A DNA stretch of 64,000 nt from Streptomyces atroolivaceus. GTDB lineage: Bacteria > Actinomycetota > Actinomycetes > Streptomycetales > Streptomycetaceae. Position numbers and translations under genes: made by a program. Location of the stretch: contig NZ_JNXG01000017.1 in NCBI RefSeq assembly GCF_000717025.1, positions 1 to 64,000 of the forward strand. Reading direction: 5' to 3'. Positions 10,192 to 32,173 of this stretch are shown piece by piece. The stretch's first letter is position 1, and each line of letters opens with the position of its first letter. The notes beneath the pieces were generated by a model. The model saw only the letters and a program-made list of their open reading frames with translations, made no database searches and was not told the origin of the DNA.

Positions 10192-10797
10192 TCAGGTCCT
10201 GGCGGGTTCCCGGAGCCGGTCGGCACGCACCATGGCGTGCTCCACGACCGCGACGAGCACATCCCGTACGGACGCCAGGTCGCGCGCGTCGCAGAGGAGC
10301 ACCGGCACCTCGGGGTCGAGGTCGAGTGCCGCCCGGACCGTCTCGGTGGGGAACTGCTCCGCACCTTCGAAGAGGTTGACGGCGACCGTGAACGGGATCC
10401 CGCGGCGCTCGAAGTAGTCGACCGCCGCGAAGCAGTCCTCCAGCCGCCGGGTGTCCGCGAGGACCACCGCACCCAGGGCTCCCTGGGCCAGTTCGTCCCA
10501 GAGGAACCAGAAGCGGTCCTGTCCGGGGGTCCCGAAAAGATAGAGGACCAGGTCCTCACGCAGGGTGATCCGGCCGAAGTCCATGGCCACCGTGGTGGTG
10601 TTCTTGCTTTCGACCCCCGCCACGTCGTCGACGGGACGCCCCGCCTCGCTCAGTCTCTCCTCCGTACGCAGCGGTCTGATCTCGCTGACCGCGCCCACCA
10701 GGGTCGTCTTGCCCACGCCGAAGCCGCCCGCCACCAGGATCTTCAGAGTGACGGGCTCGACGTGCCGCTTTCTGCGGCTAGAGCGCCCGAAGGCCAT
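10192..10797 (-). CDS. cvnD: Conservon GTPase (CvnD-type ATP/GTP-binding protein)
   Basis: Small Ras-like GTPase, 201 aa, last gene of a four-gene conservon. The P-loop GGFGVGKTT is at about residues 25-33, followed by a switch region (TVAMDFGRI) and the GTPase motif FGTPGQDRF. In the one characterised family case (cvn9 of S. coelicolor) the four proteins form a membrane-associated, GPCR-like signalling assembly affecting development. The start ATG has GAGGTG upstream and overlaps the end of the DUF742 gene by 20 bases, implying translational coupling. No P450 genes follow, unlike some conservons. Confidence 0.93.
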   Translation of the reverse strand: MAFGRSSRRKRHVEPVTLKILVAGGFGVGKTTLVGAVSEIRPLRTEERLSEAGRPVDDVAGVESKNTTTVAMDFGRITLREDLVLYLFGTPGQDRFWFLWDELAQGALGAVVLADTRRLEDCFAAVDYFERRGIPFTVAVNLFEGAEQFPTETVRAALDLDPEVPVLLCDARDLASVRDVLVAVVEHAMVRADRLREPART

Positions 10798-11215
10798 TGA
10801 TCACCTCGCGGAGAAGGCTCTCGTCCGGCAGCTCGGCCGGCGGAACGGGACGGGTGACGTGCACCAGTTCGTCCTCGACGAGGTCACCGACCAGGACACG
10901 GACCACCCCGACGGGGAGGTCCAGCCCGGAGGCGAGTTCGGCGATCGACTGGGGCATGTCGCTGCACAGTTCGACGATCTCCACGTGTTCCGGGGAGAGC
11001 GTCTGGTCCCTGCCGGGATCGTCCGCCGCCGGTTCGGGGATGACGATCGCGATCAGGTCGAGGCGATGACGGGTCGCGCTGCTGGTACGCCCCCGGGTCA
11101 TCGCGTAGGGCCGGACCACCGGCCCCGCTTCGGCGTCGTACCAGCGCGAGGAGCCCGCTCCGGTGGGAGCGGATGGTGATCCGGACGCGGTGTCCCGGAA
11201 GGAGTCTGCGCTCAT
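10778..11215 (-). CDS. cvnC: Conservon DUF742 protein (CvnC-type)
   Basis: 145-residue cytosolic protein of the DUF742 family, which has a winged-helix-like fold. The N-terminal 30 residues are Ser/Ala/Gly-rich linker. The conserved core includes VRPYAMTRGRT, then LSPEHVEIVELC and SIAELASGLDLPVGVVRVLVGDL, and it ends in LLREVINGLRAL, the typical DUF742 tail. It has a strong ribosome site (GAGGTGAGGGG). It overlaps cvnD and starts nine bases after cvnB stops, so it is part of one operon. Confidence 0.92.
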   Translation of the reverse strand: MSADSFRDTASGSPSAPTGAGSSRWYDAEAGPVVRPYAMTRGRTSSATRHRLDLIAIVIPEPAADDPGRDQTLSPEHVEIVELCSDMPQSIAELASGLDLPVGVVRVLVGDLVEDELVHVTRPVPPAELPDESLLREVINGLRAL

Positions 11216-11224
11216 CCCCTCACC

Positions 11225-11668
11225 TCACCCTCCGGCGGGCAGACCGTCGGTACGGGGGGCGTTGGCCAGGTGCGCCCCCACGCGCTTGACCATCAGGGTC
11301 ATCTCGTACGCCACCTGTCCGACGTCCGAGTCGGAGTCGGCCAGGACGGCGAGACAGCTGCCGTCGCCGGCCGCCGTGACGAAGAGGAAGGCCTCGTCGA
11401 GCTCGACCACGGTCTGGCGGACCCGGCCGGCGTCGAAGTGGCGTCCCACGCCCTTGGCGAGGCTGTGGAACCCCGAGGCGACGGCCGCCAGGTGCTCGCT
11501 GTCCTCCCGGGTCAGGTCCTGGGACGTGCCGGTGGCGAGGCCGTCGCTGGACAGGACCAGCGCCTTGCGGATGCTCGCGACGCGCTCGACCAGTTCGTCG
11601 AGGAGCCAGTTGAGCTGGCCGGAGCCCTGGCGTGCGGCGTTGTGTGCTGCGGCGTTCGGTGCGGTCAT
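11225..11668 (-). CDS. cvnB: Conservon roadblock/LC7 protein (CvnB-type)
   Basis: 147-residue Roadblock/LC7-domain protein, the likely regulatory partner of the CvnD GTPase. Family features include LNWLLDELVERVASIRKALVLSSDGL near the start and the internal EAFLFVTAAGDGSCLAVL strand pair. Its ATG overlaps the stop codon of cvnA in an ATGA arrangement, indicating translational coupling with the sensor kinase. Confidence 0.94.
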   Translation of the reverse strand: MTAPNAAAHNAARQGSGQLNWLLDELVERVASIRKALVLSSDGLATGTSQDLTREDSEHLAAVASGFHSLAKGVGRHFDAGRVRQTVVELDEAFLFVTAAGDGSCLAVLADSDSDVGQVAYEMTLMVKRVGAHLANAPRTDGLPAGG

Positions 11669-14469
11669 CGACCGTCCCCTCCCGGAGTCGTTCCTGGTGC
11701 TGTCTCGCCGGGGCCGGCCGCGTCCTCGGCGTTCTGCCGACGGCCGCGTTGCCAGCCGCGTTGAAGCGAAGCCATGCGATTGCGTACTTCGTCCGCGTCA
11801 CGTTCGAGGTCGTCGTCCGTGTCCACGGGGGCGTGGCCGGAAGTCCGCCCTGCGGAGTCCTCCCGGAGCTGTGGGGCGAGGCTCGCCTGCCGGACCCTGC
11901 GAGGGAGGCCGCCCACCGTGTCCGGCGCGGACGGCCGGGGCGCGGGCCTGAGCCGCGTCGGGGCCCCGTCGGCCCGCCGCGTGCCCGGACCGGGCTCCGC
12001 GGTGACGGTTTCCGGTCCGGGGAACGAGGGGAAGCCCTCGGGTGCGCCGGGATGGGCGCGTCCCCCGTCGCCGATCCGGCGGCCCTGGTCGGTGACGAGC
12101 GTCGGCGGCTTGCGGCGCGGCAGCGGCACGGGGCCTGCGGGCCGCATCGGCCGGACGTCCGCGGAGCGGCCGTCCGACGCGTCGAAGGCCTGCTGGTGCT
12201 GTTCCCGGTCGGCCGCCCTGCGCAGGTCACGGGCCCGGAAGATGCCGCCGCGCTCGCTCTCGGTGTCCTCCAGATCGGATACGCCGTCGAGGACGGGCCC
12301 GAGAGCCGGATCGAGCTCCCGGTCGAGTGCCGGGTCGTCGGTGAACCCGAGCGGGCCCACCGGGCTTTCGAGCTCGACGGGACCGTCGAGCACCGACGGG
12401 TCGGTGAGGCCGGCGGGGACCGGGGAGAGCCCGGAGGGCCTGCCCGGAATGTCCTTGTCCGCGACTCCGTCCCTGCGGGCCTTGTCGCTGCCCGGCACGA
12501 GGCTGCCCGGCCGGCCGCCACCGATCGCCTTCTCCGCCCGGCGGTCGAGGCGGAAGCCTGTGCCGTGCGTGTCGGGAGCGTCGGTGAGCAGCTGCGCCGG
12601 GATGAAGACGACCGCGGTCGTCCCTCCGTACGGTGAGGTCTGCAGCGACACCCTGACGTTCTGCCGCTGGGCCAGCCGGCTGACGACGAAGAGGCCGAGC
12701 CGGTCGGTGTCGGAGAGCTCGAAGTCGGGTGTCTCGGCGAGCCGCAGGTTGGCGTCCAGAAGCACCTCCGGCGCCATGCCGAGCCCGCGGTCGTGGATCT
12801 CGAGGGTGAAGCCGTTGGCCACGCGCTCGCCGTGCACCTGGACGGCCGTGTGCGGGGGTGAGAACACCGTGGCGTTCTCCAGCAGTTCCGCGATCAGGTG
12901 GGTGAGGTCGGCCACGGCAGGGCCGCCCACGCCGATGCGGGGCAGGCGCCGGACCTCGATGCGCTCGTAGTCCTCCACCTCGGCGACCGCCGCGCGCACC
13001 ACGTCCATCAGCTGGATCGGCTTGCGCCACTGCCGGGACGGGGCGGCCCCGGAGAGGATCACCAGGCCTTCCGCGTGGCGGCGCATGCGGGTGGTGAGGT
13101 GGTCGAGGCGGAAGAGGTCGGCGAGCTCGTCACCGTTCTCGGTACGCCGCTCCATGGTGTCCAGGAGCGTCAGCTGACGGTGCAACAGCACCTGGTTGCG
13201 GCGTGCGAGGTTGACGAAGACCTCGGAGACGCCCCGGCGCATGTCGGCCTGCTTGACGGCGGCCTCGACGGCGGCCCGCTGCAGGGTGTTGAGGGCCTGC
13301 CCGACCTGGCCGATCTCGTCGCGCTCGTAACTGAGGTGGGGGGCTTCCGTCTCCACGTCCACCTGCTCCCCCGCGGCCAGCCGCCGCATCACGCTGGGCA
13401 GCCTCACCCCTGACACCTCATGGGCGTCCTTGCGCAGCCGGGACAGGTCACGGACGAGTTCGCGCCCCACGCGCACGGACACGAAGACCGACACGAGCAG
13501 GGCGACGAATCCCAGGACACCGGCGACACCGGCCTGGATCAGGACCCGGTAGCCGGCGGGTTCGGCGCGGTCCTGGAAGCGGTTGGACATCTCGGTGCCG
13601 TCGTTGGCCAGGTGGTCCAGGACCGGCGGGGCCGCCTCCTGCCAGCGCTCGGCGTCGACCGCACCCGGTTTCGTGACCGGGCCCGCGGCGATGAGCCTCT
13701 GTTCGGCCGTTCGCAGCGGCTCGGTGTCGGGGCTGCTCCAGTACTGCTCCATACGGCTGCGCTCGCCGGCCGGCAGGAGCTCGAGGTTGACCTCGTACAG
13801 GAGCTTGCGGCTGGCGGCGAGGTCGGAGACGACGCGGAGTTCGGGGGCACCGAGGCGTCCGGCGATGAGGCCCGACGCGATCAGGGCGTCCTCACGGGAG
13901 AGCATCTCGCGGGCCCGGGAGATGCCGACCAGGGCCCGGACCTGCTTGTCCATCGACACGTTCTCCATCGTGTGGAGACCGTTCAGGAAGCGGTAGGACG
14001 GGTCGACGAGACCGTTGTAGAAATCGAGGGCCCTGGTCCGGTCGATGGTGCGCTTCTCGACGGATCCGCGCAGCGCGTCCAGCCCGTCGATCTCGCTGAG
14101 GATCGAGTCGAGCTGGGCCTCCGCCTCGGGGCTCAGCTTGTCGCGGATGTCCTCGCTCTCCGCGCTCTGCCTGACCTCGGCCACGACACGGTCGGTCTGG
14201 GCACGCTGGCGGCGCAGCAGGGGCAGGGCGTCCGAGGCCCGGGGGTCGGCGAGGAAGACGAGTGTCTGGCGGCGTTCGCCCTGGACGGCGCGGATGGTGT
14301 CTTCCAGGGGGTGGCCGACCTGCTCCACGATGGCGCTCGCGCCCATCAGCTCGCCGGCCTCACGACCGGTGACGTAGGTGGCGAAGACCCAGAGTCCCGT
14401 GAGGGAGGCGAGCGGCACCAGGAGCAACGCCACGATCTTCCTGCGGATGGACTTCCCGCGAAAGCGCAT
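11665..14469 (-). CDS. cvnA: Conservon sensor histidine kinase-like membrane protein (CvnA-type)
   Basis: 934-residue membrane sensor. A basic start (MRFRGKSIRRK) leads into a first membrane helix at about 10-32, then a large extracellular nitrate-sensor-like region, and a second helix at about 325-350. A HAMP-like linker and a GHKL ATPase domain follow (ENATVFSPP N-box, DRGLGMAP G-box). The last ~290 residues are a low-complexity, Pro/Arg/Asp-rich tail with no fold visible. A GGGGGAGG ribosome site directly precedes the ATG at 14469, overriding longer frames. It is the first gene of the cvnABCD operon. Confidence 0.93.
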   Translation of the reverse strand: MRFRGKSIRRKIVALLLVPLASLTGLWVFATYVTGREAGELMGASAIVEQVGHPLEDTIRAVQGERRQTLVFLADPRASDALPLLRRQRAQTDRVVAEVRQSAESEDIRDKLSPEAEAQLDSILSEIDGLDALRGSVEKRTIDRTRALDFYNGLVDPSYRFLNGLHTMENVSMDKQVRALVGISRAREMLSREDALIASGLIAGRLGAPELRVVSDLAASRKLLYEVNLELLPAGERSRMEQYWSSPDTEPLRTAEQRLIAAGPVTKPGAVDAERWQEAAPPVLDHLANDGTEMSNRFQDRAEPAGYRVLIQAGVAGVLGFVALLVSVFVSVRVGRELVRDLSRLRKDAHEVSGVRLPSVMRRLAAGEQVDVETEAPHLSYERDEIGQVGQALNTLQRAAVEAAVKQADMRRGVSEVFVNLARRNQVLLHRQLTLLDTMERRTENGDELADLFRLDHLTTRMRRHAEGLVILSGAAPSRQWRKPIQLMDVVRAAVAEVEDYERIEVRRLPRIGVGGPAVADLTHLIAELLENATVFSPPHTAVQVHGERVANGFTLEIHDRGLGMAPEVLLDANLRLAETPDFELSDTDRLGLFVVSRLAQRQNVRVSLQTSPYGGTTAVVFIPAQLLTDAPDTHGTGFRLDRRAEKAIGGGRPGSLVPGSDKARRDGVADKDIPGRPSGLSPVPAGLTDPSVLDGPVELESPVGPLGFTDDPALDRELDPALGPVLDGVSDLEDTESERGGIFRARDLRRAADREQHQQAFDASDGRSADVRPMRPAGPVPLPRRKPPTLVTDQGRRIGDGGRAHPGAPEGFPSFPGPETVTAEPGPGTRRADGAPTRLRPAPRPSAPDTVGGLPRRVRQASLAPQLREDSAGRTSGHAPVDTDDDLERDADEVRNRMASLQRGWQRGRRQNAEDAAGPGETAPGTTPGGDGR

Positions 14470-14979
14470 GGCCTCCCCCAGCTCGGCCCCGCTCAGCGGG
14501 GGTGGTTGTGTCGGTGTCCCCGGTGGGTCCGGTCGCCCGGACCTCCTGGTTGTTCCGGTGTTCCTGCCGCGGCCCACCGAGCGTCGGCCGGAGTTCCGTC
14601 AACAAACGGCGCGAGCCTACTACTGACCTACCGGTAACTCGAAGACGTGTCCGGACGAATTCCGGCCGCACCGCCCCGAGTTGCTCACCAGTTGTCCCGG
14701 TATTCCCGGTGAAGAAATTCGCGAAAGCGACAGAGAACTGCTGGCCGGAGACGATGGATTCACACACGGCAGTTGGCTGGAATTCTTCGTTCCGTGACCT
14801 TTCGGGGCTGGTTGCTGCCCCCGGGCGGGAATCTTCACGACGTGGCGTTCGTCCACACGTACGGGGCAGAAGAACCCCACGGGGGTACGTGCGACAGGCG
14901 ACCGGCTCCGCCCGCGTAGAACGGGCGCGAGCCGGGCAGCCACCCTTGAGTCGGACAGTGGTGGGGAGTTGAAGGTCCT
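14470..14979. other. Divergent intergenic region between the conservon and a small membrane protein
   Basis: 510 bases without a credible gene. The middle (about 14,600-14,790) is noticeably lower in GC than the flanking genes, which fits promoters for both directions. I found no -35/-10 pair with good spacing and no strong inverted repeat. Confidence 0.6.
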
Positions 14980-15450
14980 TTGGACACGGACGAGCGCAGG
15001 AGCACGGCCGCACCGCCGGCGGGCACGAGTGCGGCAGGTGCGTCTGCGGCGGGTGCCCGGATCCCGCGGCAGCTGTGGGTCGAGGAACCCGCGATACGGC
15101 GGAGGATGCCGGACCCGGTGAGGACGGCCGCCGTGCGCGCCGTCCTCATCATGTCGCTGACGATCATCCAGGCCATGGTCGCCTTCCTCTGCACACTGGC
15201 CGGGTCCTGGCTCGCCTTCCCGATGGTGCTGAGCGGCGTGGCCGGCACGGTCGTGGCGACGTGGTCGGTGCTGGACGTCTGGGTGACCCGCCAGGTGTGG
15301 AACCAGCGCAACGGCGTGGTGTCCGTGCCCAGCAGCACGGCGCGCAGCATGCGACGGGAGCGCCGGGCCGGCAGGCGCGCCGCCCGTGCCCAGGCGCGCA
15401 GGGAAGCACGGATACGACGCCGGGGCGACGGCCGGCTCTCCCGGGCCTGA
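14980..15450 (+). CDS. Small membrane protein with basic tail
   Basis: 156-residue protein of unknown function. An Ala/Gly-rich cytoplasmic leader of about 45 residues is followed by two adjacent membrane segments at roughly 50-75 and 80-100. The C-terminus of about 35 residues is strongly basic (RRERRAGRRAARAQARREARIRRR), suggesting contact with nucleic acid or acidic lipids on the inner face. It starts at TTG with GAAGG four to five bases upstream. It stands alone, ending 22 bases before the convergent SMC-like gene. I do not recognise a named family. Confidence 0.72.
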   Translation: MDTDERRSTAAPPAGTSAAGASAAGARIPRQLWVEEPAIRRRMPDPVRTAAVRAVLIMSLTIIQAMVAFLCTLAGSWLAFPMVLSGVAGTVVATWSVLDVWVTRQVWNQRNGVVSVPSSTARSMRRERRAGRRAARAQARREARIRRRGDGRLSRA

Positions 15451-15471: not shown

Positions 15472-18400
15472 CTACCGCTTCTCCGAGGCCTGCGCGGGCC
15501 CGGTGTGCGTACCCGTCGTCTCCGTGCGCATCTCCGGGACCGGCGCGCCGCCCACGGTGCCGGGCGCCTCGCCGGTCCGCTTGAACATGCGGGTCGCGGT
15601 GATCTCGCCGTGGACGGTCTCACCCTCCGGGTCCTGTTGGGGCAGACCCGGCCTGAGGTGCTCCTCCACGCTGATGTACTTCAGCCCCGCGCGCAGGTCC
15701 GCATCGTTGCGGAGGCGGATGACGAGCGGGAATTCGGCGAGCGCCGTGGTGTCGAAGAGCCCGGTCGTGTAGAGCAGCTGGACTCCCAGCGCGTCGGAGA
15801 CCGCGCGCTGAAGCTCCAGCAGATACGTGGCGTTCGCGCGTCCGATCGGGTTGTCGAGGAAGAGGGTGCCCGCGTGGCGGTGCCGGTCGCGGCCCCGGTC
15901 GTTGCTGCGCAGGGCCGCCATCGTGCAGTACAGCGCGATCGCGGCGGTCAGCAGCTGGCCTCCGGAGAAGACGTCGCCCATCTGTCCGACCGGCACACGC
16001 TCGGCACGCAGCACCGCGTCCGGCTTGAGGATCTCCACGGCGATGCCCTTGGGCTGCAGCGCCGCCTGAACACCTCGCAGCAGAAGGGACATGCCGTCCC
16101 TGCGCATGTCGGAGTTCTTCTTGAGGGCCGCGTGCGTGGCCTCGTCGATGACCTCGCCGAGCCGCTCGGTGAGCGTGGCCTGGTCGGGTTCCTCGAAGCG
16201 GATCCGGAGGAATTCCTGGCCGGACCACTCCCCCAGTCCTTCGGGCAGCTGCGAGAGCCGCTGCGCGGAGCGGAGCGTCGTGAGGGCAGACTCCACGAGC
16301 CCGCGGAGCCGGTCGACGATGGAGTCGCGGTTGCGCTCCAGCTGGGCGAGCTCGTCGGTGAGCACGCGCAGCCTCGGAGCGAAGGCCGCGGCCCACTTCT
16401 CGGCGTGGTCGGGCAGGGCGGCCGCCGGGAGTTCCCGGATCTGCTGCCGTGCCGGTGTGCGGACCTGTTCGTACCGGGTGGAGTTGGCGTGCCGCACGAG
16501 GACGTCGCTCGCCTCCCGCACGGAACTCTCCGCAGCCGACAGGTCGGTGGCGCAGCCGCGCAGTGAGCGGCGTGTCTCGGCGGCGGAATGCCGGGCCTCC
16601 TCCAGGGTGCCCTGGTACGGGTCGGAGGCTTCGGTCTCCTCGTCCGCGCCGTGGTCCCTGAGCAGGTCACGCAGGAGCGCGGCGGTCTCGTCGAACCCGC
16701 CCGCCGAGTCCTCCGCGGTCCGGTGGGCGCGCAGCAGCTCGGCGTGGGCGGCGCGCGCGGTGTCCAGCGCCGTGGTGGCGGAGGCCAGTTCGGCCGTCGC
16801 CGTGCGGAGCAGGGCCTGGGCCTGGTCGGCGTCGGCAGGAACCAGGTCGGCGGGGAGCTGGGTGTGGTGGGGCGCCTCGTCGGCGGGGGCGAGCCGTTCG
16901 GTCTCTCCGCGGAGCCGGCCGAGCTGTTCGCTGGCCGTGGACGCCCTCGTCTCCAGAAGCTGGACCAGGGACTCGGCGCGGGCGGCGGCCGCCTGCCGGG
17001 AGGGCCCGTCGGCGCCGTCGGTGCCTTCGAGGAGCAGCGCCGCGCGTGTACGGACCTTGTTGGTGAGGCGGTCGAGTTCGGCCAGGGCCGCGCTCTCGTC
17101 GCTCTCGGCACGCGCCTGCTCGGCCCGCAGGTCGGCTCCGACTCCCACCTTCTCGTACAGCTGTGAGGCCGCACGGTATGCCTCGCGCAGAGCGGGCAGG
17201 GAGGTCCGCGCGGCGGAGGCGTCGGGCTCCGGGAGCGTTTCCGGGGCACCCGCGATCTCGGCGCGTTCGGCGCGCAGGGCACGGGCGGTCCGGTGGGCGT
17301 CGTCCGCGGCGCGCTGGGCGGCACGGCGGTCCTCGTCGGCTGCACGTGCCCGCTCCAGACACGCCGTGGCGCGTGCCTCGGATTCGGCTGCCTCGTCGGT
17401 CAGTTCACGCAGCCGCGCCTGCCAGCCCGCCCGGTCACGGAGGCGGTGGGCGAGGCCGGCGAGCGCGTCGGCGGCGCGGCGGGCGCGCTGGGCCGCCTCC
17501 TGGCGCTCGTCCCGGACACGTGCGGCGTCGGCAGCGGCCTCGTCGGCCTCGGCGCGCACGGTACGGGCCTCGGCCAAGGCGGATTCCGCGGTTTCCGCGG
17601 CGGCGCGAGCGGTACCGGCGGCCTCGCCGAGCTCGGCCAGCATGCCGGGCGGGCAGTCGGCGCGCCACGAGCCGATACGGGCGGCGAGGGAGCGGTCGGC
17701 GGTGAGGCGGGCCGCGAGCGACCTGATGTCCTCGTCGCGTGCCGCGGCCCGCGCCCTGAGCGTCTGGCGCTCCTCGTCGGCGGCGTGTTCGTCGTGCATA
17801 GCGGGGTTGGGCGGGACGAGGAACACGTCGTCGGCACCGGCGCCGTCGGGCGCCGGTACGGGGGCGAGGAGAGCGGCCGTGGTGCCGACGGCGACGGCCG
17901 ACCGGGGCAGCAGTGCGGCGGCGGCCAGGACTTCACGGGCGCGGGTGTGCGCGTCGGGGTCGGTGATGACGACACCGTCGACGAGCTCGGGCCGTGCGGC
18001 CAGGACCGCCGCGTGGTCGGCGGGATCGACGGCCTGGGCGAGGTAGCGCCAGCCGGGCAGGGCCGGGATGCCGTGCTCACCGAGGTATTCGACGGTGGCG
18101 AGGACGTCGGGGCCCGGCGGCAGCAGTCCGCCGTCCCCGAGGGCTCCGAGGATGCGGGAGTCGTCGGCGGCGGCGGTGCGCAGGTCGAAGAGCCTGCGTT
18201 CGGCGGCGGCGACGCCCTGGTCGAGGAGCTCGCGCAGCTCGTCGGCGCTGTTGTCGAACTCCTCGGCGGTGAGGGACTGCGCCTCCCCTCCGGTGGGCTC
18301 GTCGTTGCCGTCCGTTCCCGCGTCCGCGCTGCGCGGACGCGGGACACCGATGCCGGAGGCCGTGGGGAGACCCAGCAGGTCGGCGAGACGGTGGTCGGCG

Positions 18401-20205
18401 GCGATCGACTCCGCGGCCCTGCGCTCGGCCTCGTAGGACTGTTCCGCTGCCTGTGCGCCGTCGGCGGCGCGGGCCGCGGCGAGCTCGCTGCGGCTCTCCG
18501 TCGCCGCGGCCTCCCGGGCCCGGTCGGCGGTTGCCCGGGCGGCCTCCCGCGCCGTGTCCCAGGCGGCTACCGCGGCCTGTTCCGCGTCGTTCGCGGCGAG
18601 GGCCGCGCGGGCCGGGTCGGCGTCCGGAGCTGTGTCGTCGAGCCAGCCCGCCCGGACGGCCTCGGCCGTCTCCTGCTCGACCTCGGCGAGACGCTGGCGC
18701 AGGTGGCCGGCCTCGCTGCGGGCGCGCTGGGCCTCGGTGGCAGCGGTGGTGGCGTCCCGGTGCGCCGTTTCCCCGGTGGCCTGCAGGGTCGCTGAGCGCT
18801 CCTCCTCCTCGTCGGCCACCTTCTCCCCCGCCTCGGCGGCGGTGTGCAGGGCGCGTACGAGATCGGCGGCGGCCGTGGCGCGCGCGGCCAGGGCGGGAGC
18901 CGCGTCGCGCTCGGCCTCCCGGATGGCGACGGCGACCCGGGCCGAGCGGTCGGCGGCCGCCCGGTGGCGCAGGACCGCTTCGGCGGCCTGCCAGGCGGCG
19001 TGGAGGGTGCGTGCCTCGCCGAGCTCACGGCGCTGGGCCGCGGCACTCCTCTCGGCAGCGGTCAGGGCGAGGGAGGCGTGCCGGTAGGCCAGCTCGGCCG
19101 CGATCAGGTCGCGGTGGCCCCGGGCGGCGTCGGCCTCGGTGACGGTGTGGGCGGCTGCGGTGACCAGCTGGGCGAGCTCGGCGGTGCGGCCGCGTTCCTC
19201 GGCGGCGCGGGCGGAGAGCCTGCGGGCGAGGGTGCGGGTGCGCCGCTCGGCACCGGCGTGGACGTCACGGCTGCGGGCCCGGTTGGCGGTGGCCTCGACG
19301 ATCCGGCCCAGCAGGTCGACGGAACCGGCGGTGAAGTCGCGTTCCGCGGTGAGCTCGGCTCGTCGGCCGAGCTTGTTCCCGAAGCCGCTGACGAGGTCGG
19401 CGAGGCCGTCCGTGTCACGGGTGTCGGTGACTGCCCGCAGGAGCAGGTCGGTGAAGTCGGAGTCCTTCTTGACCGCGAAGAGTCCGGCGGCCTCCCCCTC
19501 GTCGGCGTTCATCTCACGCTGGTAGCGGAAGAGTTCCGGGTCGAGCCCCAGGTCGCCGAGGTGTTCGTTCCAGCGGTCGTGGATCTCTTCCCAGTGCACG
19601 TCGAGGTGCGGGTAGAACTTGCCGGCGTCGGTGAGGGCGTCGCGGAAGCCCTTCATGGTGCGGCGCCTGCCGCGGGCACCGGAGGCGCCTTCGACGGGGC
19701 GGCCCACCGAGGTGGCCTCGGCGACGGGAAGGCTGTCGAGGCTGAGGCCGGGCCCCGGGCGGAAGGAGTACCAGGCCTCGGCGAACTTGCGGGGGTCGTT
19801 GGAGACCTGGCGGCCGCGCCATTCGCTGACCTTGCCGACGACGACGCACTCTCCGGTGAGCGTGTGCTGCCACTCCAGGGCGACGTGTCCGCAGTCGTCG
19901 GCGAGCAGGAACTTGCGCAGGACGCCGGAGCTGGCGCCGCCCAGGGTGTTGCGGTGCCCCGGCAGCATCACGGAGAAGATCAGCTTGAGCAGGACGGACT
20001 TGCCGCCGCCGTTCTCCAGGAACAGCACTCCCGCGGGTGCGGGGCGGCGCGGGGGGCCGACGGGCTCGTCCTCGAAGAACTCCGCCTGGGCCGGCGCGGG
20101 CCTGGGCACGGGCGCGCCGACGCCGCGCAGGTCGAGCACGGTGTCGGCGTAGCGCGCACCGGCGGGCCCGATGGAGTAGAGGCGGACCCGGGACAACTCG
20201 TACAT
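15472..20205 (-). CDS. Large SMC/MukB-like coiled-coil ATPase (MksB/JetC-like)
   Basis: 1,577-residue ATPase with split nucleotide-binding halves. The N-terminal head contains the Walker A motif FLENGGGKSVLL (K69). A central ~1,100 residues of Ala/Glu/Arg-rich helical coiled coil follow, interrupted by a hinge-like globular part around residues 700-830. The C-terminal head has the ABC signature FSGGQLLTA near 1416 and Walker B LFLDNP near 1446. This is the layout of SMC, MukB, MksB and JetC proteins. The residue after the Walker B aspartate is Asn, not the usual Glu. The ATG at 20205 is chosen because the conserved head begins there. It is the third gene of a three-gene operon; family placement beyond SMC-like is inference. 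Confidence 0.8.
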   Translation of the reverse strand: MYELSRVRLYSIGPAGARYADTVLDLRGVGAPVPRPAPAQAEFFEDEPVGPPRRPAPAGVLFLENGGGKSVLLKLIFSVMLPGHRNTLGGASSGVLRKFLLADDCGHVALEWQHTLTGECVVVGKVSEWRGRQVSNDPRKFAEAWYSFRPGPGLSLDSLPVAEATSVGRPVEGASGARGRRRTMKGFRDALTDAGKFYPHLDVHWEEIHDRWNEHLGDLGLDPELFRYQREMNADEGEAAGLFAVKKDSDFTDLLLRAVTDTRDTDGLADLVSGFGNKLGRRAELTAERDFTAGSVDLLGRIVEATANRARSRDVHAGAERRTRTLARRLSARAAEERGRTAELAQLVTAAAHTVTEADAARGHRDLIAAELAYRHASLALTAAERSAAAQRRELGEARTLHAAWQAAEAVLRHRAAADRSARVAVAIREAERDAAPALAARATAAADLVRALHTAAEAGEKVADEEEERSATLQATGETAHRDATTAATEAQRARSEAGHLRQRLAEVEQETAEAVRAGWLDDTAPDADPARAALAANDAEQAAVAAWDTAREAARATADRAREAAATESRSELAAARAADGAQAAEQSYEAERRAAESIAADHRLADLLGLPTASGIGVPRPRSADAGTDGNDEPTGGEAQSLTAEEFDNSADELRELLDQGVAAAERRLFDLRTAAADDSRILGALGDGGLLPPGPDVLATVEYLGEHGIPALPGWRYLAQAVDPADHAAVLAARPELVDGVVITDPDAHTRAREVLAAAALLPRSAVAVGTTAALLAPVPAPDGAGADDVFLVPPNPAMHDEHAADEERQTLRARAAARDEDIRSLAARLTADRSLAARIGSWRADCPPGMLAELGEAAGTARAAAETAESALAEARTVRAEADEAAADAARVRDERQEAAQRARRAADALAGLAHRLRDRAGWQARLRELTDEAAESEARATACLERARAADEDRRAAQRAADDAHRTARALRAERAEIAGAPETLPEPDASAARTSLPALREAYRAASQLYEKVGVGADLRAEQARAESDESAALAELDRLTNKVRTRAALLLEGTDGADGPSRQAAAARAESLVQLLETRASTASEQLGRLRGETERLAPADEAPHHTQLPADLVPADADQAQALLRTATAELASATTALDTARAAHAELLRAHRTAEDSAGGFDETAALLRDLLRDHGADEETEASDPYQGTLEEARHSAAETRRSLRGCATDLSAAESSVREASDVLVRHANSTRYEQVRTPARQQIRELPAAALPDHAEKWAAAFAPRLRVLTDELAQLERNRDSIVDRLRGLVESALTTLRSAQRLSQLPEGLGEWSGQEFLRIRFEEPDQATLTERLGEVIDEATHAALKKNSDMRRDGMSLLLRGVQAALQPKGIAVEILKPDAVLRAERVPVGQMGDVFSGGQLLTAAIALYCTMAALRSNDRGRDRHRHAGTLFLDNPIGRANATYLLELQRAVSDALGVQLLYTTGLFDTTALAEFPLVIRLRNDADLRAGLKYISVEEHLRPGLPQQDPEGETVHGEITATRMFKRTGEAPGTVGGAPVPEMRTETTGTHTGPAQASEKR

Positions 20206-20281
20206 GGCGGCGGACTCTCGTCGTTCAGGCGGCGGGGGGCGACTGGTGCGGCAGGGGGTGGGGGGCGGGGCGGGGCCGGGC

Positions 20282-21193
20282 TCAGGAGTGGAAGGGAAGT
20301 CCCGCGTCGGCGGCCAGCTCCAGGCCGTCGGTGTCGGGTGGGGGCAGCAGGGTCGCCGACCCGTCCGTGACCGGGACGACGCCCAGTTCCAGCAGCTCGG
20401 CCATGGCGGCGCTGCCGGCCATGTCGCGTACCTGGAGCTGGTAGCGGGCCGTGGTCCGGTAGGCGCCCCCCGAGTCGTCCCCGGTGCGCTGGAGGAAGCC
20501 CGAGTCCGTGAGGAAGGCGACCGCCTTGCCGATGATGCCGGTGGTGGAGCCGGCGAGCCTGCGGGCGTCCTTGGTGGCGCCGGTGGCACTGCGGCGGGCG
20601 TAGACGCGCCACCCCGACTCCAGACCGGGGGCGTCGGTGGCCGGGTCGGTGTTGTCACCCTGCTCCTCGGCGCGCTCCTCCAGTCGTCGGCAGGCCTGGC
20701 GCACGAAGGCGTCGACACCGTTGACCGTGATGCGGCCGATGTAGGAGTCGTCGGCCAGGTCTTCGGGCCGCGGGAAGGCCATGGCGGCGACGGCGAGGTG
20801 GGCGAGGCCGTGCAGGAAGCGGTCGGCCGAGTCGGAGGAGGCGCGCCTGGCGTAGTCGCCCATGCGGACGGTGAAGACCGAGTCCTCTCCGGCGGTCACC
20901 GCCATCCCGGCGCGGGTGGAGACCTCCAGGACGACGAGTCCGAGACCGGTGGCGACGGCGTCGGCGAGCCTGGCGAATGCGGGCTCCTCGCGGTAGCGCC
21001 GGAGCAGCTCGGTGTATTCGGCGTCCCGGGCGGGCATCAGTTTCGGCTGCAGCCCGAAGGAGACCAGGCGGGCCGCGTCGGCCGCGTCCGCGGGGGTGAG
21101 AGCGGCGGGAGCGGCCGGCCGGGCGGCGTCGGCCGCGTGCGTGAGGGACTGGTCGCCCCACGCATCGGTGTGCTCGGCGTGCTGCTCGCTCAA
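20282..21193 (-). CDS. MksE/JetB-like accessory protein of the SMC-like operon
   Basis: 303-residue soluble protein with no motif I can name. It is mainly helical, with a likely winged-helix part near residues 205-270 (an acquired-helix pattern followed by FLTDSGFLQRTGDDSGGAYRTTARYQL). Size, position and fold guess fit the small middle subunit (MksE/JetB) of MukBEF-like condensins. It starts at TTG, supported by GAGGAG eight bases upstream. It lies 67 bases after the 508-residue gene and 76 bases before the ATPase gene. Role inferred from gene order only. Confidence 0.7.
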   Translation of the reverse strand: MSEQHAEHTDAWGDQSLTHAADAARPAAPAALTPADAADAARLVSFGLQPKLMPARDAEYTELLRRYREEPAFARLADAVATGLGLVVLEVSTRAGMAVTAGEDSVFTVRMGDYARRASSDSADRFLHGLAHLAVAAMAFPRPEDLADDSYIGRITVNGVDAFVRQACRRLEERAEEQGDNTDPATDAPGLESGWRVYARRSATGATKDARRLAGSTTGIIGKAVAFLTDSGFLQRTGDDSGGAYRTTARYQLQVRDMAGSAAMAELLELGVVPVTDGSATLLPPPDTDGLELAADAGLPFHS

Positions 21194-21260
21194 CTCTGTG
21201 ACTCCTCGGTACGGGTGCCGCTCTCGGGCGGCAGGGGGCGGGTGGTCGGGCCGGGAACGC

Positions 21261-22787
21261 TCATGAGGCGTCCTTGCGGTCCGCGGCCATCCCCGCCGCG
21301 TCCAGCAGGGCCATGCCCACTATCAGGTCGGCTCCGCCGAACTCGTGGTCCTCGAGCGGGGTGCCGTCGTCGACGGCGAACAGCAGCCGCCGCTCGCCCT
21401 GGCGGTAGGCCGTGCCGACCGGCGGACTCGCCGCGTGCACGGCGAGCAGGGCGACCAGGTAGGGCAGCTCGGGGTCGCGCAGCCGGGCCTCGGCGAGAAG
21501 TCCTGAGAGCCGGCGCGGGGCGTCGTGCTCCAGGTCGAGCAGCTCCATGGCGTGTCCGAGCTGCTCCTCGCTGAACCGGCTGTCGTCCGGGGTGGCGATG
21601 AGGTCGGGCTCGGGCATCTCGGCGCCGAGGTGCTCCCGCTCCACCGGGGGCATGAGCAACAGGTCGACGAGGTCGCCGACCCGGACCGAGGTCGGCGTGC
21701 GCAGCCCTGTGCCGTGCGCGAAGAACGCGTCGGTGGCCCGGGTGGCCTGTTCGACGGGGAGCGGCAGCAGCGGTACGACGAGCTGTCCGTAGAGGTCGAG
21801 GCCTGCCCGCGCCGTGGGGGTGGCGAACGCCTGCCGGTCCTGTTCGGCCCGGAAGAGGGGCCCCGCCTCCAGAAGCCGGGACTGGAGCTGGGTGTGGCGG
21901 CGGATGCAGTCCTTGACGATGTCGACGAGTTCGGCGGCGCGGCGCTTGTTCTCGGGTTCCTCCGCCTCGTCCCTGGCCTTGCGGATGTTGGTGAGGATGG
22001 CGTTCTCGTGGCGGTAGCGGTCGGCGACGTGGTCGAGCGCCTCGGTGATCATGTCGGGTACGGCGTTGAGCCAGTCGACGGCACGGACGTTGCGCCGGGT
22101 CGCCTCGAGCGTCCTGCGGAGCGTCTCGGCGTACTGCACGGTGCGGTACCGGGCCTGTTCCGCGGCGAGCTGCGCGTCGGCGAGGCGGCCCCGGCTGATG
22201 AGGACCTCCAGCTTCACCTCGGCGGCGATCTGGGCGCTGGTGACATCCGTGTCCAGGGCGCCGACCAGGACGTTGACCGCCTCGTCGGTGGTGCGGAGGT
22301 AGACGATGCCGCCGTGGCCGGGGACCTCCTCGATGAGCTTGAAGTCGTAGTCCCTGCGGACGTAGACGCCGTCGGGTCCGAAGGTGCCGTACACGGCGCG
22401 GAAGCCGCGGTCCACGCTCCCGACGTTGATCAGGTTCTCCAGGACCCAGCGCGCCACCCGCTCGTGCTCGGTGACGGGCCGGCGCGGTGCCTGGGCGGCG
22501 ACCCGCGGGAGGAGCCTGGCCACTATCTGGTCGTGGTCGGCACCGGTGTCGAAGTCCATGTTGAGGGTGACCAGGTCGATCGCGGCGAGGGCGACTTCGG
22601 CCATCGCGTAGACCGTGTACTCGCCTGCGAGGTTGGCCTTGCGCACGTCGAGGTCGTGCAGCGGAGCGGTGCAGGCGAGCGCGCGCAGCCGACGCGAGAG
22701 CCCCTCATCGGCGGCGGGGCCCGGGGCGGGCCTCGGTCCCGCGCTGAGCTGGGGCGCAGCGGTCTGGGTGTCGGCAGGCGAAGTCAC
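21261..22787 (-). CDS. MksF/JetA-like subunit of the SMC-like operon
   Basis: About 508 residues, soluble, predominantly alpha-helical, with a long helical central region (about 200-330) rich in Arg/Glu. It matches no domain I can name with confidence. Its size and first place in the operon fit a kleisin-type subunit such as MksF/JetA. The start is uncertain. GTG at 22787 is preceded by TAATCT seven bases upstream, compatible with a leaderless transcript; a TTG at 22817 has no ribosome site. Together with the next two genes it forms a block conserved in order with MksFEB and JetABC operons. Confidence 0.72.
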   Translation of the reverse strand: MTSPADTQTAAPQLSAGPRPAPGPAADEGLSRRLRALACTAPLHDLDVRKANLAGEYTVYAMAEVALAAIDLVTLNMDFDTGADHDQIVARLLPRVAAQAPRRPVTEHERVARWVLENLINVGSVDRGFRAVYGTFGPDGVYVRRDYDFKLIEEVPGHGGIVYLRTTDEAVNVLVGALDTDVTSAQIAAEVKLEVLISRGRLADAQLAAEQARYRTVQYAETLRRTLEATRRNVRAVDWLNAVPDMITEALDHVADRYRHENAILTNIRKARDEAEEPENKRRAAELVDIVKDCIRRHTQLQSRLLEAGPLFRAEQDRQAFATPTARAGLDLYGQLVVPLLPLPVEQATRATDAFFAHGTGLRTPTSVRVGDLVDLLLMPPVEREHLGAEMPEPDLIATPDDSRFSEEQLGHAMELLDLEHDAPRRLSGLLAEARLRDPELPYLVALLAVHAASPPVGTAYRQGERRLLFAVDDGTPLEDHEFGGADLIVGMALLDAAGMAADRKDAS

Positions 22788-22844: not shown

Positions 22845-26459
<3,615 letters not shown>

Positions 26460-27939: not shown

Positions 27940-29358
27940 TCAGACTGCGGGTGCGTCCGGTCCGATCCTGCTGCGCACCGCGGTCTGCACCTCGGCCTCT
28001 TCGGCCGGGTCGGCGGCGAGCCGCCGCAGTCGTTCGGCGACCCGGATGTCCCCGGTCTCCGCGTGGTGTGCGGCCAGTTCCCGGGTGGTCTCCTCGCAGT
28101 CCCAGAGGCACTCGACGGCGAAGCCGCTGGCGAAGGACGGGTCGGTGGCCGCCAGTGAACGGGCGGCCCGGCCGCGCAGGTGCGAGGAGGACGTCTCCCT
28201 GTACACATGGCGCAGTACCGGCGCGGCACAGGCGATGCCCAGGCGCCCGGCGCCGTCGACGAGGGTGCACAGGCGCGGGGTGTCGGGGCCCTCGCCCCTG
28301 ACCGCCTCGCGCAGCGCGGCAAGGACGAGCGGGGCGTCCTGTACGGAGCCACGGCAGGCGAGGACCCCCGCAGCAGAGGCCCCGAGGGCATCGGGCCGGT
28401 GGGCCCAGCCCCGGGCCCGGTCGACCGCCGCTTCTCCGCACATGCGCTCGAAGGCGGCCACGGCCGCATCGGCGACGGTGCGGGACGGGCCGGTCACGGC
28501 TTGCTCGATCAGGTCGAGCACGGCAGGATCCTGGGCCTCGGCCAGGTAGTGCAGGGCGGCGCAGCGGGCACCCTCGGAGCCGCTGCGGGCGGCCTCGATG
28601 ATCAGGGGGCGGTCCTCGGTCCCGGCGACGGCGGAGAGGCAGCGGGCCGCGGGGACGTGGAGGGCGCTGCCGCGTTCCAGTCCTTCCTGGGCCCAGTCGA
28701 AGACGGCCTGGACGCTCCAGCCGGGGCGAGGTCCGCCCGGCCTCATCTGCCGCTGCCACCGGTCGAACGATCCCTGTTCCGTCGCCGCCCTGACCCTGGC
28801 GCCGACCGCTTCGCGCGGGTCGTCGGCCCAGAGCCGCCAGGGGCGGGGCTCGAAGGCGTCCCGCACGGCGGCGGCCAGCTCGGCGGTTCCCTCCGCGGTG
28901 GCGGGGAAGCGGGCCAGCACCGCCCCGGCGAGGGAACGCAGCCCGGCGTCGTCGTCTCGCAGGGCCAGTTCGTCGAGTGCCCAGGCCCAGTTGGACCCGG
29001 TCGCGGCGTACCGGCGCAGGAGTACGAGGGCGTCGTCGCGCCCGTAGGAGGCGAGGTGCCCGAGCACGGCCAGCGCGAGACCCGTGCGTGAGTCGTCGGT
29101 CCGGAGGTGGTCCTCCGGATCCCACAGGTGCCGCTCGATCTCCTCGGTGCCACCGTCGAGATCCAGGTAGAGCCGCGCGTAGTAGAGGGAACGGTTCTCG
29201 ACCTGCCAGTCGTGACGGGGATCGCTCAGGACGCAGTGGTTGAGAGCCGCGAGGGCCTCGGGACGCGGGGCGGCGAGCGCGTGGAGCGTGCCGTCGCCAC
29301 GGCCCCTCTGCAGCAGGCCGAGCAGTGTGCCGCTCGGCGCTATGAACGGATCGAACAT
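27940..29358 (-). CDS. HEAT-repeat protein, 472 aa
   Basis: Soluble helical-repeat protein. Repeats are recognisable through most of the chain as paired helices with A-A-L cores, for example AARCLSAVAGTEDRPLIIEAA, GARCAALHYLAEAQDPAVLDL and RGRAARSLAATDPSFASGFAV. Such folds usually serve as protein-binding scaffolds. There is no signal peptide, membrane segment or catalytic motif. The ATG at 29358 has GAGG eight bases upstream. It stands alone; the partner is unknown. Confidence 0.85.
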   Translation of the reverse strand: MFDPFIAPSGTLLGLLQRGRGDGTLHALAAPRPEALAALNHCVLSDPRHDWQVENRSLYYARLYLDLDGGTEEIERHLWDPEDHLRTDDSRTGLALAVLGHLASYGRDDALVLLRRYAATGSNWAWALDELALRDDDAGLRSLAGAVLARFPATAEGTAELAAAVRDAFEPRPWRLWADDPREAVGARVRAATEQGSFDRWQRQMRPGGPRPGWSVQAVFDWAQEGLERGSALHVPAARCLSAVAGTEDRPLIIEAARSGSEGARCAALHYLAEAQDPAVLDLIEQAVTGPSRTVADAAVAAFERMCGEAAVDRARGWAHRPDALGASAAGVLACRGSVQDAPLVLAALREAVRGEGPDTPRLCTLVDGAGRLGIACAAPVLRHVYRETSSSHLRGRAARSLAATDPSFASGFAVECLWDCEETTRELAAHHAETGDIRVAERLRRLAADPAEEAEVQTAVRSRIGPDAPAV

Positions 29359-30547: not shown

Positions 30548-32173
30548 GTGGACCGGCGACCACTCCCCCGCATTCTGAGCAGCGGCAGCGCTTCGATCAC
30601 CCGCAGTCGCGAGATCGCACGCACGGCCGCCGACAACGCCACCGACGTCCTCCATCCGCTGATCACGGTCACCCGTGGCCTGCGGCTGCTGGCGGGAGCA
30701 GGTCGGCAGAGATGGGCCGCGACGCCCAGGGACCGGCGCGGACACGTGCTGTTCCTTGTCGCGGCATGCGTACTGGTGGTGGCGCTCATCCCCTACGGGC
30801 CGCTCCTGGCCCTCATCACGGTGATGGGCGCTGCCGCATGGCGGGGGCGCGCGCGGAACCCCGCGAAGACCGGCCCCGACGAGACGGAGACCGCACGGCT
30901 CCAGGCGCTGTACGAGGCGCTGGTGCCGCACTTCTCCGTGTCCGACGACCCCAGTCCGCTGTTCTCCCACGGCGGCGACTGGGAGAAGGCGTTCGGCACC
31001 TCGTTCGCCTTCGACGCCGACGGGCGTCCCACCCGGCTCCAGGTGAACTACCCGGCGTACTTCGACGACGGCGATCCCGCGTCACGCGCACGTGTCGAGC
31101 AGGTGCTCCACGCCAAGTCCGGCCGGAACCGTGAATACCACTTCTCCTGGGACGAGGAGAGCAACCACCTCCTCATGACGGTGCTCGCCGCGCTTCCCAC
31201 CACCATCGCCGCCCAGCGGTTCGTCACCGCGCCCGGCGAGACCGTGCTGGGGTTCACCGACGCCGACGCGGTCCCGCGCACCGTTCCGGTCCAGGACGGC
31301 GACGGGACGCGGGACGCCTCCCCGGTGATCTGGCGGACGGGCGCCCGCTCGGCGGAGCCCCATCTGCTGATCGCCGGCCACCCCGGCAGCGGCACCACGA
31401 CCCTGATGCGCTCACTCGCCCTGCAGGCCCTCCAGCACGGCGACATCCTGGTCGTGGAGGGCGGCGGCACCGGCGAGTACGGCTTCCTGACCGGCCGGGA
31501 CGGCGTACTGGCCGTCGAGTGCGGGCTGGGCGGCGCCCTGGCGACACTCGAATGGGCGGCGCACGAGACGGAGCGGCGGCTCATCGCCGCCAACCGGGCC
31601 CGCCAGGCCGGGCATCCCGAGCCCGAGGACATCAAGCGCCCCCTGTGGATCCTGCTGGACCGCCCGAGCGCGCTGGGACACCTGGCGGCCGCCGACGGCA
31701 GGCAGGATCCGCAGGAACTCCTCCAGGTGCCGCTGCGGCACGGTCGCGCCGCCGGGGTGACGGTCGTCGTCGCGGACCAGTTCGACAGCCTCGACGCCCT
31801 CACGGAGACCGTACGGACCCACACCAGGGCACGTGCCGTGCTGGGCCCCGCGGACCGCGACCAGGTCGAGGCGGTCCTGGGAGTCCAGCCGCACACCACT
31901 CCGGTCACCGAGGTCCCGCCGGGCCGCGGCTACGCCCGGCTGGGCAACGGGCCCGTCATGCGACTGCAGGTACCGTCCACCCCGGACCCGCACGACGACG
32001 CCACGAGCGAGGCGCAACGGCAGGCGGTACTCGGCCTGTTGCCCGGTGGCGGCCCGGCGGAGGAGCGAGCCGCACCGGAGGCGTCGCCGGAGGCCGCCCC
32101 GGAAACGGTCGACGAGCCCGTGCCGGAGCACCTGGACCGGCTGGTCAAGACACCGGCCGTCGCGGAGGGCTGA
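30548..32173 (+). CDS. sffA: SffA-type FtsK/SpoIIIE-like septal protein with altered Walker A
   Basis: 541-residue protein with two membrane helices near residues 66-98 and a cytosolic P-loop domain of FtsK/SpoIIIE type. In the model species SffA sits at sporulation septa with SmeA and helps chromosome handling. The P-loop reads GHPGSGTTT at about 277-285: the invariant lysine is replaced by threonine. The Walker B region is WILLDRP without a following Glu. Full ATPase activity is therefore doubtful. It starts at GTG with AGGAG seven bases upstream. The C-terminus is Pro/Glu-rich and disordered. Confidence 0.85.
   Translation: MDRRPLPRILSSGSASITRSREIARTAADNATDVLHPLITVTRGLRLLAGAGRQRWAATPRDRRGHVLFLVAACVLVVALIPYGPLLALITVMGAAAWRGRARNPAKTGPDETETARLQALYEALVPHFSVSDDPSPLFSHGGDWEKAFGTSFAFDADGRPTRLQVNYPAYFDDGDPASRARVEQVLHAKSGRNREYHFSWDEESNHLLMTVLAALPTTIAAQRFVTAPGETVLGFTDADAVPRTVPVQDGDGTRDASPVIWRTGARSAEPHLLIAGHPGSGTTTLMRSLALQALQHGDILVVEGGGTGEYGFLTGRDGVLAVECGLGGALATLEWAAHETERRLIAANRARQAGHPEPEDIKRPLWILLDRPSALGHLAAADGRQDPQELLQVPLRHGRAAGVTVVVADQFDSLDALTETVRTHTRARAVLGPADRDQVEAVLGVQPHTTPVTEVPPGRGYARLGNGPVMRLQVPSTPDPHDDATSEAQRQAVLGLLPGGGPAEERAAPEASPEAAPETVDEPVPEHLDRLVKTPAVAEG

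Follow-up and report, generated by a model that had tools for sequence, protein, structure and literature searches.

The three genes at 15472..22787 of the window, the whole 64,000-nucleotide stretch of Streptomyces atroolivaceus DNA analysed here, encode the JetA, JetB and JetC subunits of a Wadjet complex of type III, and in this form, without the nuclease subunit JetD, the complex is fixed in the family Streptomycetaceae. We consider it probable that the Streptomycetaceae JetABC is the motor part of a type III Wadjet system that lost JetD and became fixed in the chromosome, where it would most likely act, next to SMC-ScpAB, as an additional SMC motor. What is new is the family-wide distribution of the JetD-less JetABC; the JetA and JetC families were already known, and a literature search found no report of a JetD-less Wadjet lineage fixed in a whole family. 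If this reading is true, it provides a clear natural case of an SMC immune machine turned household across a whole family, while relatives that have the nuclease occur in the same genus, and the debated direction of evolution between the defence and the chromosome SMC complexes becomes directly testable. In the literature consulted, the folding of the Streptomyces chromosome is studied via SMC-ScpAB, ParB and HU-like proteins. If a further SMC motor is present in nearly every species, both the mildness of the growth phenotype in smc deletions and the domains that remain in the chromosome deserve to be reconsidered.

The jetABC operon and its products

A reading made from the DNA sequence only (the sequence-only reading) had described a JetABC/MksFEB-like SMC operon of three same-strand genes at this place, and this description is borne out: all three lie on the minus strand, in the order jetA-jetB-jetC. 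The jetA gene (21261..22787) encodes the putative kleisin subunit of 508 aa from a GTG start; a TTG located 10 codons 5' of the GTG is also a possible start. After a gap of 67 bp it is followed by jetB (20282..21193), which has a TTG start with GAGGAG upstream and encodes a KITE (tandem winged-helix) subunit of 303 aa, and after another 76 bp by jetC (15472..20205), which encodes from an ATG start an SMC-like coiled-coil ATPase of 1,577 aa (DUF3584).

The type of the complex is indicated by the PADLOC models. JetA matches the JetA3 model PDLC00567 over residues 24-505 with an E of 3.6e-185, and JetC matches the JetC3 model PDLC00588 with an E of 0 and 1404 bits; by these matches the two S. atroolivaceus proteins belong to type III Wadjet, and the option of a new family, also raised by the sequence-only reading, was wrong at the family level. 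None of the PADLOC JetB models matched the jetB product, which shares 52% identity with the JetB from a JetABCD set and whose predicted model has JetB and MukE as its best fold matches. The expected winged-helix fold was recovered for JetB, and the sequence-only reading is not refuted by the fold comparisons; for JetA the check came out only in part. The predicted JetA model, which is of low confidence (pLDDT 57), has MukF at ranks 1-9 in Foldseek (best E 6.2e-5), and a VIA search with the same model returned unrelated helical proteins, with MukF absent among the 50 matches listed.

The Pfam and NCBIfam libraries contain Muk/Mks models, but searches of both up to E 1 returned only chance-level matches under the family cut-offs and no Muk/Mks model among them, and on this ground membership in MksBEF or MukBEF by sequence was rejected. 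In the same searches JetC, for which a place among the RecN/SbcC-type ATPases had been considered, matched no RecN, SbcC or Rad50 model, nor any Pfam SMC model. The PDB sequence search gave nothing useful for JetA, JetB or JetC, and the PHROGs search gave no match.

The ATPase motifs attributed earlier to JetC are all present and are kept in an alignment that includes JetD-bearing relatives: the Walker A GGGKS (residues 66-70; 19996..20010, minus strand), identical in those relatives, the signature motif FSGGQ (residues 1413-1417; 15955..15969, minus strand) and the Walker B LFLDNP (residues 1448-1453; 15847..15864, minus strand). The Walker B motif of SMC proteins usually has a catalytic Glu where JetC has an Asn; the resulting DN in place of DE, seen as DNP, is common to the JetD-bearing relatives.

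The missing JetD and the distribution of the operon

The operon had been read as lacking its nuclease subunit, and the genome-wide search for a JetD homologue proposed at the time, run with the two models PF09983 and PDLC00594 (JetD3), confirmed this with 0 matches in the S. atroolivaceus genome, which is 99.9% complete. JetD was likewise found by tblastn in 0/39 further core loci. As a positive control, PF09983 found the JetD of C. glutamicum; PDLC00594 was silent in 14 named controls and gave strong, near-full-length matches in 14/199 Streptomyces genomes. These 14 strong JetD3 loci, one per genome, each adjoin a JetB and a JetC of their own, and the sets with a JetD occur sporadically as second copies or lie on plasmids. 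One or both models match in 31/199 Streptomyces genomes (the union of the two match tables, counted by hand, with the same 199 genomes taken for both), and neither matches in the other 168, S. atroolivaceus included. A complete Wadjet system with its JetD encoded elsewhere in the genome could be imagined for the 31 genomes with a match. However, defence through a JetD in trans appears unlikely because 168 of the 199 genomes match neither model, and the strong JetD3 loci come with partners of their own; in S. atroolivaceus, where both models found none, a JetD in trans was rejected. We regard this explanation as very improbable.

Candidates for a nuclease in place of JetD were also considered and set aside. 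A JetD-sized gene of 359 aa, convergent with jetC in Frankiaceae, has no PADLOC match, and its product looks like a membrane-anchored, Ala/Pro-rich protein. A calcineurin-like phosphoesterase gene follows jetC in a single locus and was not found in the other 69 of the 70 sequences searched.

JetA is matched in 193/199 Streptomyces genomes; among the six without a match, three are less than 83% complete, two are in more than 1,000 contigs and one is 6% contaminated. One further genome has only a weak match (1.8e-64), and its JetA is probably of a different type. For the Streptomycetaceae, 120/121 genomes have a JetA match, one, G541, being of a different, JetD-bearing kind. The genes A, B and C follow each other in this order without JetD in all 39 core loci that were read (20/20 in Streptomyces and 19/19 in other Streptomycetaceae genera). 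On viral contigs, one locus has a 90%-identical JetA, with neither JetB nor JetC within the following 8 kb.

A JetD-less relative of jetABC is also found in Frankiaceae, where 16 loci were read and the absence of JetD was counted in the 10 that reach at least 4 kb past the JetC match. A common origin of the Streptomycetaceae and Frankiaceae JetD-less clades has values of 88/39 in the JetA tree and 59/20 in the concatenated tree; for the latter, 9 loci that were divergent or cut by the contig, 7 near-duplicates among the core loci and one near-duplicate with a JetD had been removed, and one locus was included without its JetC part. The loss of JetD in the two families may have been one event or two parallel ones.

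Selection, neighbours and possible roles

The dN/dS values across jetA, jetB and jetC are 0.04-0.19 (27 comparisons, nine loci per gene). All three genes are under purifying selection and are therefore not chance ORFs, and these values also reject a pseudogene reading. One could take the missing JetD as a sign that the genes are the decaying leftovers of a defence system that was lost, but with such ratios in all three genes, intact motifs and presence across the family, this explanation is scarcely credible.

The positions conserved in the JetD-bearing relatives are retained in the JetD-less core at 93/98 in JetA and 35/36 in JetB, and in the Frankiaceae JetD-less group at 87/98 and 34/36, respectively. 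Among these positions, no loss of JetD-docking residues was found in the core; since almost all are kept, no eroded JetD-docking surface is seen, which would allow for a different partner. The retention of these columns is one point in favour of a defence complex with another effector, in which JetABC would recognise invading DNA (plasmids, circular or replicating phage DNA) and silence or trap it, or recruit a nuclease other than JetD. The relatives are JetABCD sets that lie on plasmids or occur sporadically, excerpts of one paper describe Wadjet as enriched in Actinobacteria (PMC10482375), and besides the phosphoesterase mentioned above, a gene at 30548-32173, 7.8 kb upstream, weakly matches the PADLOC family mad8 (E 8e-12). 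On the other hand, JetA is near-universal in the family while the JetD-bearing sets are patchy, the phosphoesterase was found in its one locus only, and the direct neighbours in the window (5-oxoprolinase, membrane protein and conservon) match no nuclease or defence family beyond a chance-level PtuA match of the small GTPase (E 0.03). A defence role of this kind seems to us rather unlikely.

These neighbours all lie outside the operon. The small membrane protein (14980..15450, plus strand) is convergent with jetC and has no Pfam match; it is matched in 32/39 core loci, each time on the other strand than jetC, within 0.7 kb of the jetC end in 25/32 and at 1-9 kb in 7/32. The 5-oxoprolinase/hydantoinase A+B gene (22845..26459, minus strand) ends 57 bp upstream of jetA and is directly upstream in 4/20 Streptomyces and 4/19 other Streptomycetaceae core loci (about 3 kb upstream read). 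This corrects the earlier picture of the two bounding genes: the former is on the plus strand, and the latter, on the same strand as the operon, is not a constant neighbour. Beyond the membrane protein lies a conservon (10192..14577, minus strand) with a CvnA-like NIT/HATPase_c kinase, Roadblock, DUF742 and a small GTPase, and its kinase gene is in the stretch read in 28/39 core loci, including 19/20 in Streptomyces. Its identification as cvn9/rar, beside SCO1631-1634, was dropped, as papers give SCO1631 as a helicase and SCO1632/SCO1633 as TatC/TatA.

Streptomycetaceae have linear replicons, and 17/20 core loci sit on a large contig at 7-23% of its length from one end. Such a position would suit a complex that manages plasmids or replicons and that, instead of killing the linear plasmids or the chromosome ends of its own cell, promotes them. 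However, Frankiaceae, whose chromosomes are generally circular, carry the JetD-less kind too, and the position may just reflect where the gene block lies; we find this role improbable.

Among the three options of the sequence-only reading, the best fit is a complex dedicated to organising the chromosome. A Wadjet complex of type III would have lost its JetD nuclease and then become fixed in the Streptomycetaceae chromosome, and without JetD it could not cut plasmids in the Wadjet manner. In the assembly, presumably a dimer of dimers, JetA would bridge two JetC proteins and JetB would bind to them. With ATP the complex would load on DNA and extrude it, probably as loops, and would so contribute to the organisation or segregation of the large chromosomes in multigenomic hyphae, in line with what has been proposed for the MksBEF of Pseudomonas. 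We infer a function in chromosome organisation, and a connection with sporulation or with the conservon next to the operon is conceivable. In S. venezuelae, according to excerpts of one study (PMC8410768), smc disruption did not significantly affect the growth rate or differentiation, and the loss of smc alone abolished arm alignment and enlarged the nucleoids. JetABC therefore does not replace SMC in S. venezuelae, and the mild growth phenotype suggests that there is room for a second organiser. A bolder proposal, which we offer tentatively, is a family-wide second condensin made from a tamed Wadjet, which would organise or segregate the chromosomes in sporulating hyphae with many genomes, perhaps their terminal domains, which barely depend on parB, and possibly under Ras-like conservon control. 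Many Frankiaceae would have such a condensin too, through the same loss or one in parallel.

Comparison with known SMC systems

Like JetABC, the Streptomyces SMC-ScpAB has an SMC motor, a kleisin and a winged-helix partner, and it is encoded elsewhere, as seen for ScpA in the S. atroolivaceus genome. The type III Wadjet set on the Rhodococcus pseudokoreensis plasmid NZ_CP070616.1 has a gene order identical to that of the S. atroolivaceus operon, a JetA that is 54% identical over 91% of the query, and the same JetA3/JetC3 models and GGGKS, FSGGQ and DNP motifs. The difference is at the end of the operon: in Rhodococcus JetD comes directly after JetC, whereas the Streptomycetaceae core operon is without it and most of the genomes have none.

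The MksBEFG/EptABCD systems of Corynebacterium and Mycobacterium are also actinobacterial complexes of a kleisin, a KITE protein and a coiled-coil ATPase, and excerpts of the literature equate Ept with Wadjet (PMC8565338) and describe these systems as possessing the MksG/JetD nuclease and acting on plasmids (PMC10123090). C. glutamicum matches PF09983 while the S. atroolivaceus genome does not. The MksBEF of Pseudomonas aeruginosa, an SMC-like condensin, likewise has three subunits (kleisin, KITE and SMC) and no nuclease, and it serves here as the precedent for a nuclease-free SMC complex (PMC10586767). MksBEF contributes to chromosome organisation; JetABC differs in grouping with type III Wadjet. 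Because of this grouping, and since no Muk/Mks model matched, the nuclease was most likely lost independently in JetABC and in the Pseudomonas MksBEF.

A nuclease-free operon across the Streptomycetaceae

The operon of jetA (21261..22787), jetB (20282..21193) and jetC (15472..20205), on the minus strand of the window, belongs to a type III Wadjet-like lineage without JetD, here called the core. Of 199 Streptomyces genomes, 193 gave a JetA match (192 among the 194 of good quality; one of those counted, G121, matched weakly), and so did 120 of 121 Streptomycetaceae genomes, with all 17 genera represented by at least one. The match in G541 (1e-16), the sole sampled genome of its genus, traces to a set of another kind that carries JetD, which leaves 119 of the 121 genomes, and 16 of the 17 genera, with the core type. 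An order-level scan found JetA in two of the 14 genomes sampled from one sister family (44% and 31% identity) and 0/1 of another, and a class-level scan in 51 of 345 genomes and five of 126 genera, these being Streptomyces and four genera of a single family. That family is the Frankiaceae, as a named scan showed (Frankia and Parafrankia records, nine loci); a Frankiaceae JetA used as query matched 19 of 35 Frankiaceae genomes.

We read 39 core loci, 20 from Streptomyces (20 kb each) and 19 from other Streptomycetaceae genera, with G541 left out. The three genes are present in the same order in every one, and JetD was found in none by tblastn with three JetD queries. Two loci are peculiar. In L147 (G543, Streptomycetaceae) the core jetA and jetB matched in broken stretches, perhaps through frameshifts or assembly errors. 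A contig filed as viral, L137 (IMGVR_UViG_2936099427_000006), starts with a core JetA, 90% identical, and neither JetB nor JetC was found within the next 8 kb; it may be a junction, a chimera or a genuine JetA-only piece.

JetD and the sets that carry it

The sequence-only reading held that the nuclease subunit is missing from the operon, and the genome-wide search did not find it elsewhere. In the assembly of the strain itself (GCF_000717025.1; 105 contigs, 8.2 Mb, completeness 99.92%), a profile search of the contigs gave no match to PF09983 (JetD_C), for which the C. glutamicum control was positive, and none to PDLC00594 (PADLOC JetD3), on which the 14 named controls were silent as well. 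The sensitivity of PDLC00594 is seen in its strong matches of near-complete length in 14 of 199 Streptomyces genomes. It is also the appropriate model here, since it matches the JetDs of three Streptomyces plasmids (E <= 1.2e-57) and, at E 5e-94, the one beside the nearest named relative with a JetD, which lies on a Rhodococcus plasmid. By the union of both models, tallied by hand, 31 of 199 Streptomyces genomes have any JetD-like match and 168 have none.

At one JetD locus from each of the 14 strongly matching genomes, JetD is preceded by JetB and JetC in all 14 and also by JetA in 13; the fourteenth locus is truncated at the contig end. Because these sets have their own JetB and JetC, and their JetA, where the window JetA was its best-matching query, is at most 53% identical to it, JetABCD and JetABC coexist as separate lineages. 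Among the 16 JetD-less Frankiaceae loci, ten were long enough to exclude an adjacent JetD, and it was found near JetABC in none of the ten; three additional loci from these Frankiaceae genomes (L118, L125, L126) are JetD-bearing.

Gene neighbourhood and chromosomal position

A conservon (kinase, Roadblock, DUF742 and small GTPase genes; 10192-14577, minus strand) is a steady Streptomyces neighbour of the JetD-less operon, its kinase gene lying within the read stretch in 28 of 39 core loci and 19 of the 20 from Streptomyces. The small membrane-protein gene (14980..15450), on the strand opposite jetC, is found in 32 of 39, at most 0.7 kb from the jetC end in 25 of the 32; the 5-oxoprolinase gene (22845..26459) is not constant beside jetABC. 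No nuclease or defence gene was recognised among the scanned direct neighbours of jetABC in the window. A gene 7.8 kb upstream (30548-32173, plus strand) encodes a P-loop ATPase of 541 aa that weakly matches PADLOC mad8 (8e-12), HerA and TraD/EccC models, and a 472-aa protein (27940-29358, minus strand) has a sub-threshold HEAT-repeat match. In one Streptomycetaceae genome a calcineurin-like phosphoesterase gene (L155:10382-11146, plus strand) starts 23 bp past jetC; a search of 69 other sequences did not find it.

On 17 of 20 large contigs jetABC lies 7-23% from the contig end, and on the other three deeper, at 32-50%; only two of the 20 core loci fall within the outer 10%. A survey of Actinobacteria (PMC10482375) reports that 42% of genomes carry Wadjet; in Streptomyces it places more than 43% of the Lamassu and Wadjet systems within the outer 10% of the chromosome at either end, and its Wadjet counts may include some JetD-less operons. 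Two JetABCD sets lie at extreme Streptomyces chromosome ends, L076 (G090:C1, ~15.7 kb) and L077 (G151:C1, ~66.6 kb, 8.04 Mb). In both genomes JetD matches occur at both ends, with equal scores in G151 and a shorter match at one end in G090, a pattern as in terminal inverted repeats.

Constraint, ancestry and a proposed role

Against nine Streptomyces loci, the window genes gave Nei-Gojobori dN/dS values of 0.04-0.14 for jetA, 0.06-0.17 for jetB and 0.09-0.19 for jetC. The JetD-bearing relatives share 98 conserved columns in JetA (11 rows) and 36 in JetB (12 rows). The core retains 93 and 35 of these, and the Frankiaceae JetD-less group 87 and 34. Together the low dN/dS and the retained columns give no indication of decay. 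Nor is a worn-away JetD-docking surface apparent in the conserved JetA or JetB columns of either group, which argues against a simple "lost partner" story, unless these positions serve the motor itself. The Walker B of SMC ATPases usually has D-E; that of type III JetC (window 15847-15864, minus strand) reads LDNP, in JetD-bearing and JetD-less proteins alike (the window, L001, L068, L070, L072, L073 and L125). Two Frankiaceae JetCs, L113 and L114, carry a long low-complexity insert ahead of Walker A.

The core loci of Streptomyces and the JetD-less ones of Frankiaceae each form one clade, with support of 100/100 for both in the JetA tree, and of 92/100 and 100/100 respectively when JetB and the C-terminal head of JetC are added. 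Their union received 88/39 and 59/20, in trees where several JetD-bearing rows are long-branched and flagged unsafe by the tree tool. JetD-bearing sets surround both clades. Loss of JetD is the parsimonious direction, since JetD is present in the more distant relatives, and one loss or two would both be compatible.

With JetD gone, the JetABC motor would still be there: JetA presumably the kleisin, JetB the KITE subunit and JetC the ATPase. The genome also encodes ScpA, which makes JetABC a second SMC complex. Text searches of the open-licence PMC literature on Wadjet, MksB/condensin and SMC-like complexes found no description of the JetD-less Streptomyces complex; among complexes missing JetD, MksBEF alone surfaced. 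We lean towards a household DNA motor rather than defence, on the strength of the ScpA encoded elsewhere, the MksBEF precedent and the S. venezuelae smc phenotype; the main rival is a defence complex with a different effector. According to PMC8410768, disruption of smc in S. venezuelae had no significant effect on growth rate or differentiation and led to enlarged nucleoids and loss of arm alignment. With JetD, JetABC measures and then cuts circular DNA, according to PMC10586767; Pseudomonas MksBEF, treated in the same paper, is the best precedent for a JetABC that would work without the nuclease.
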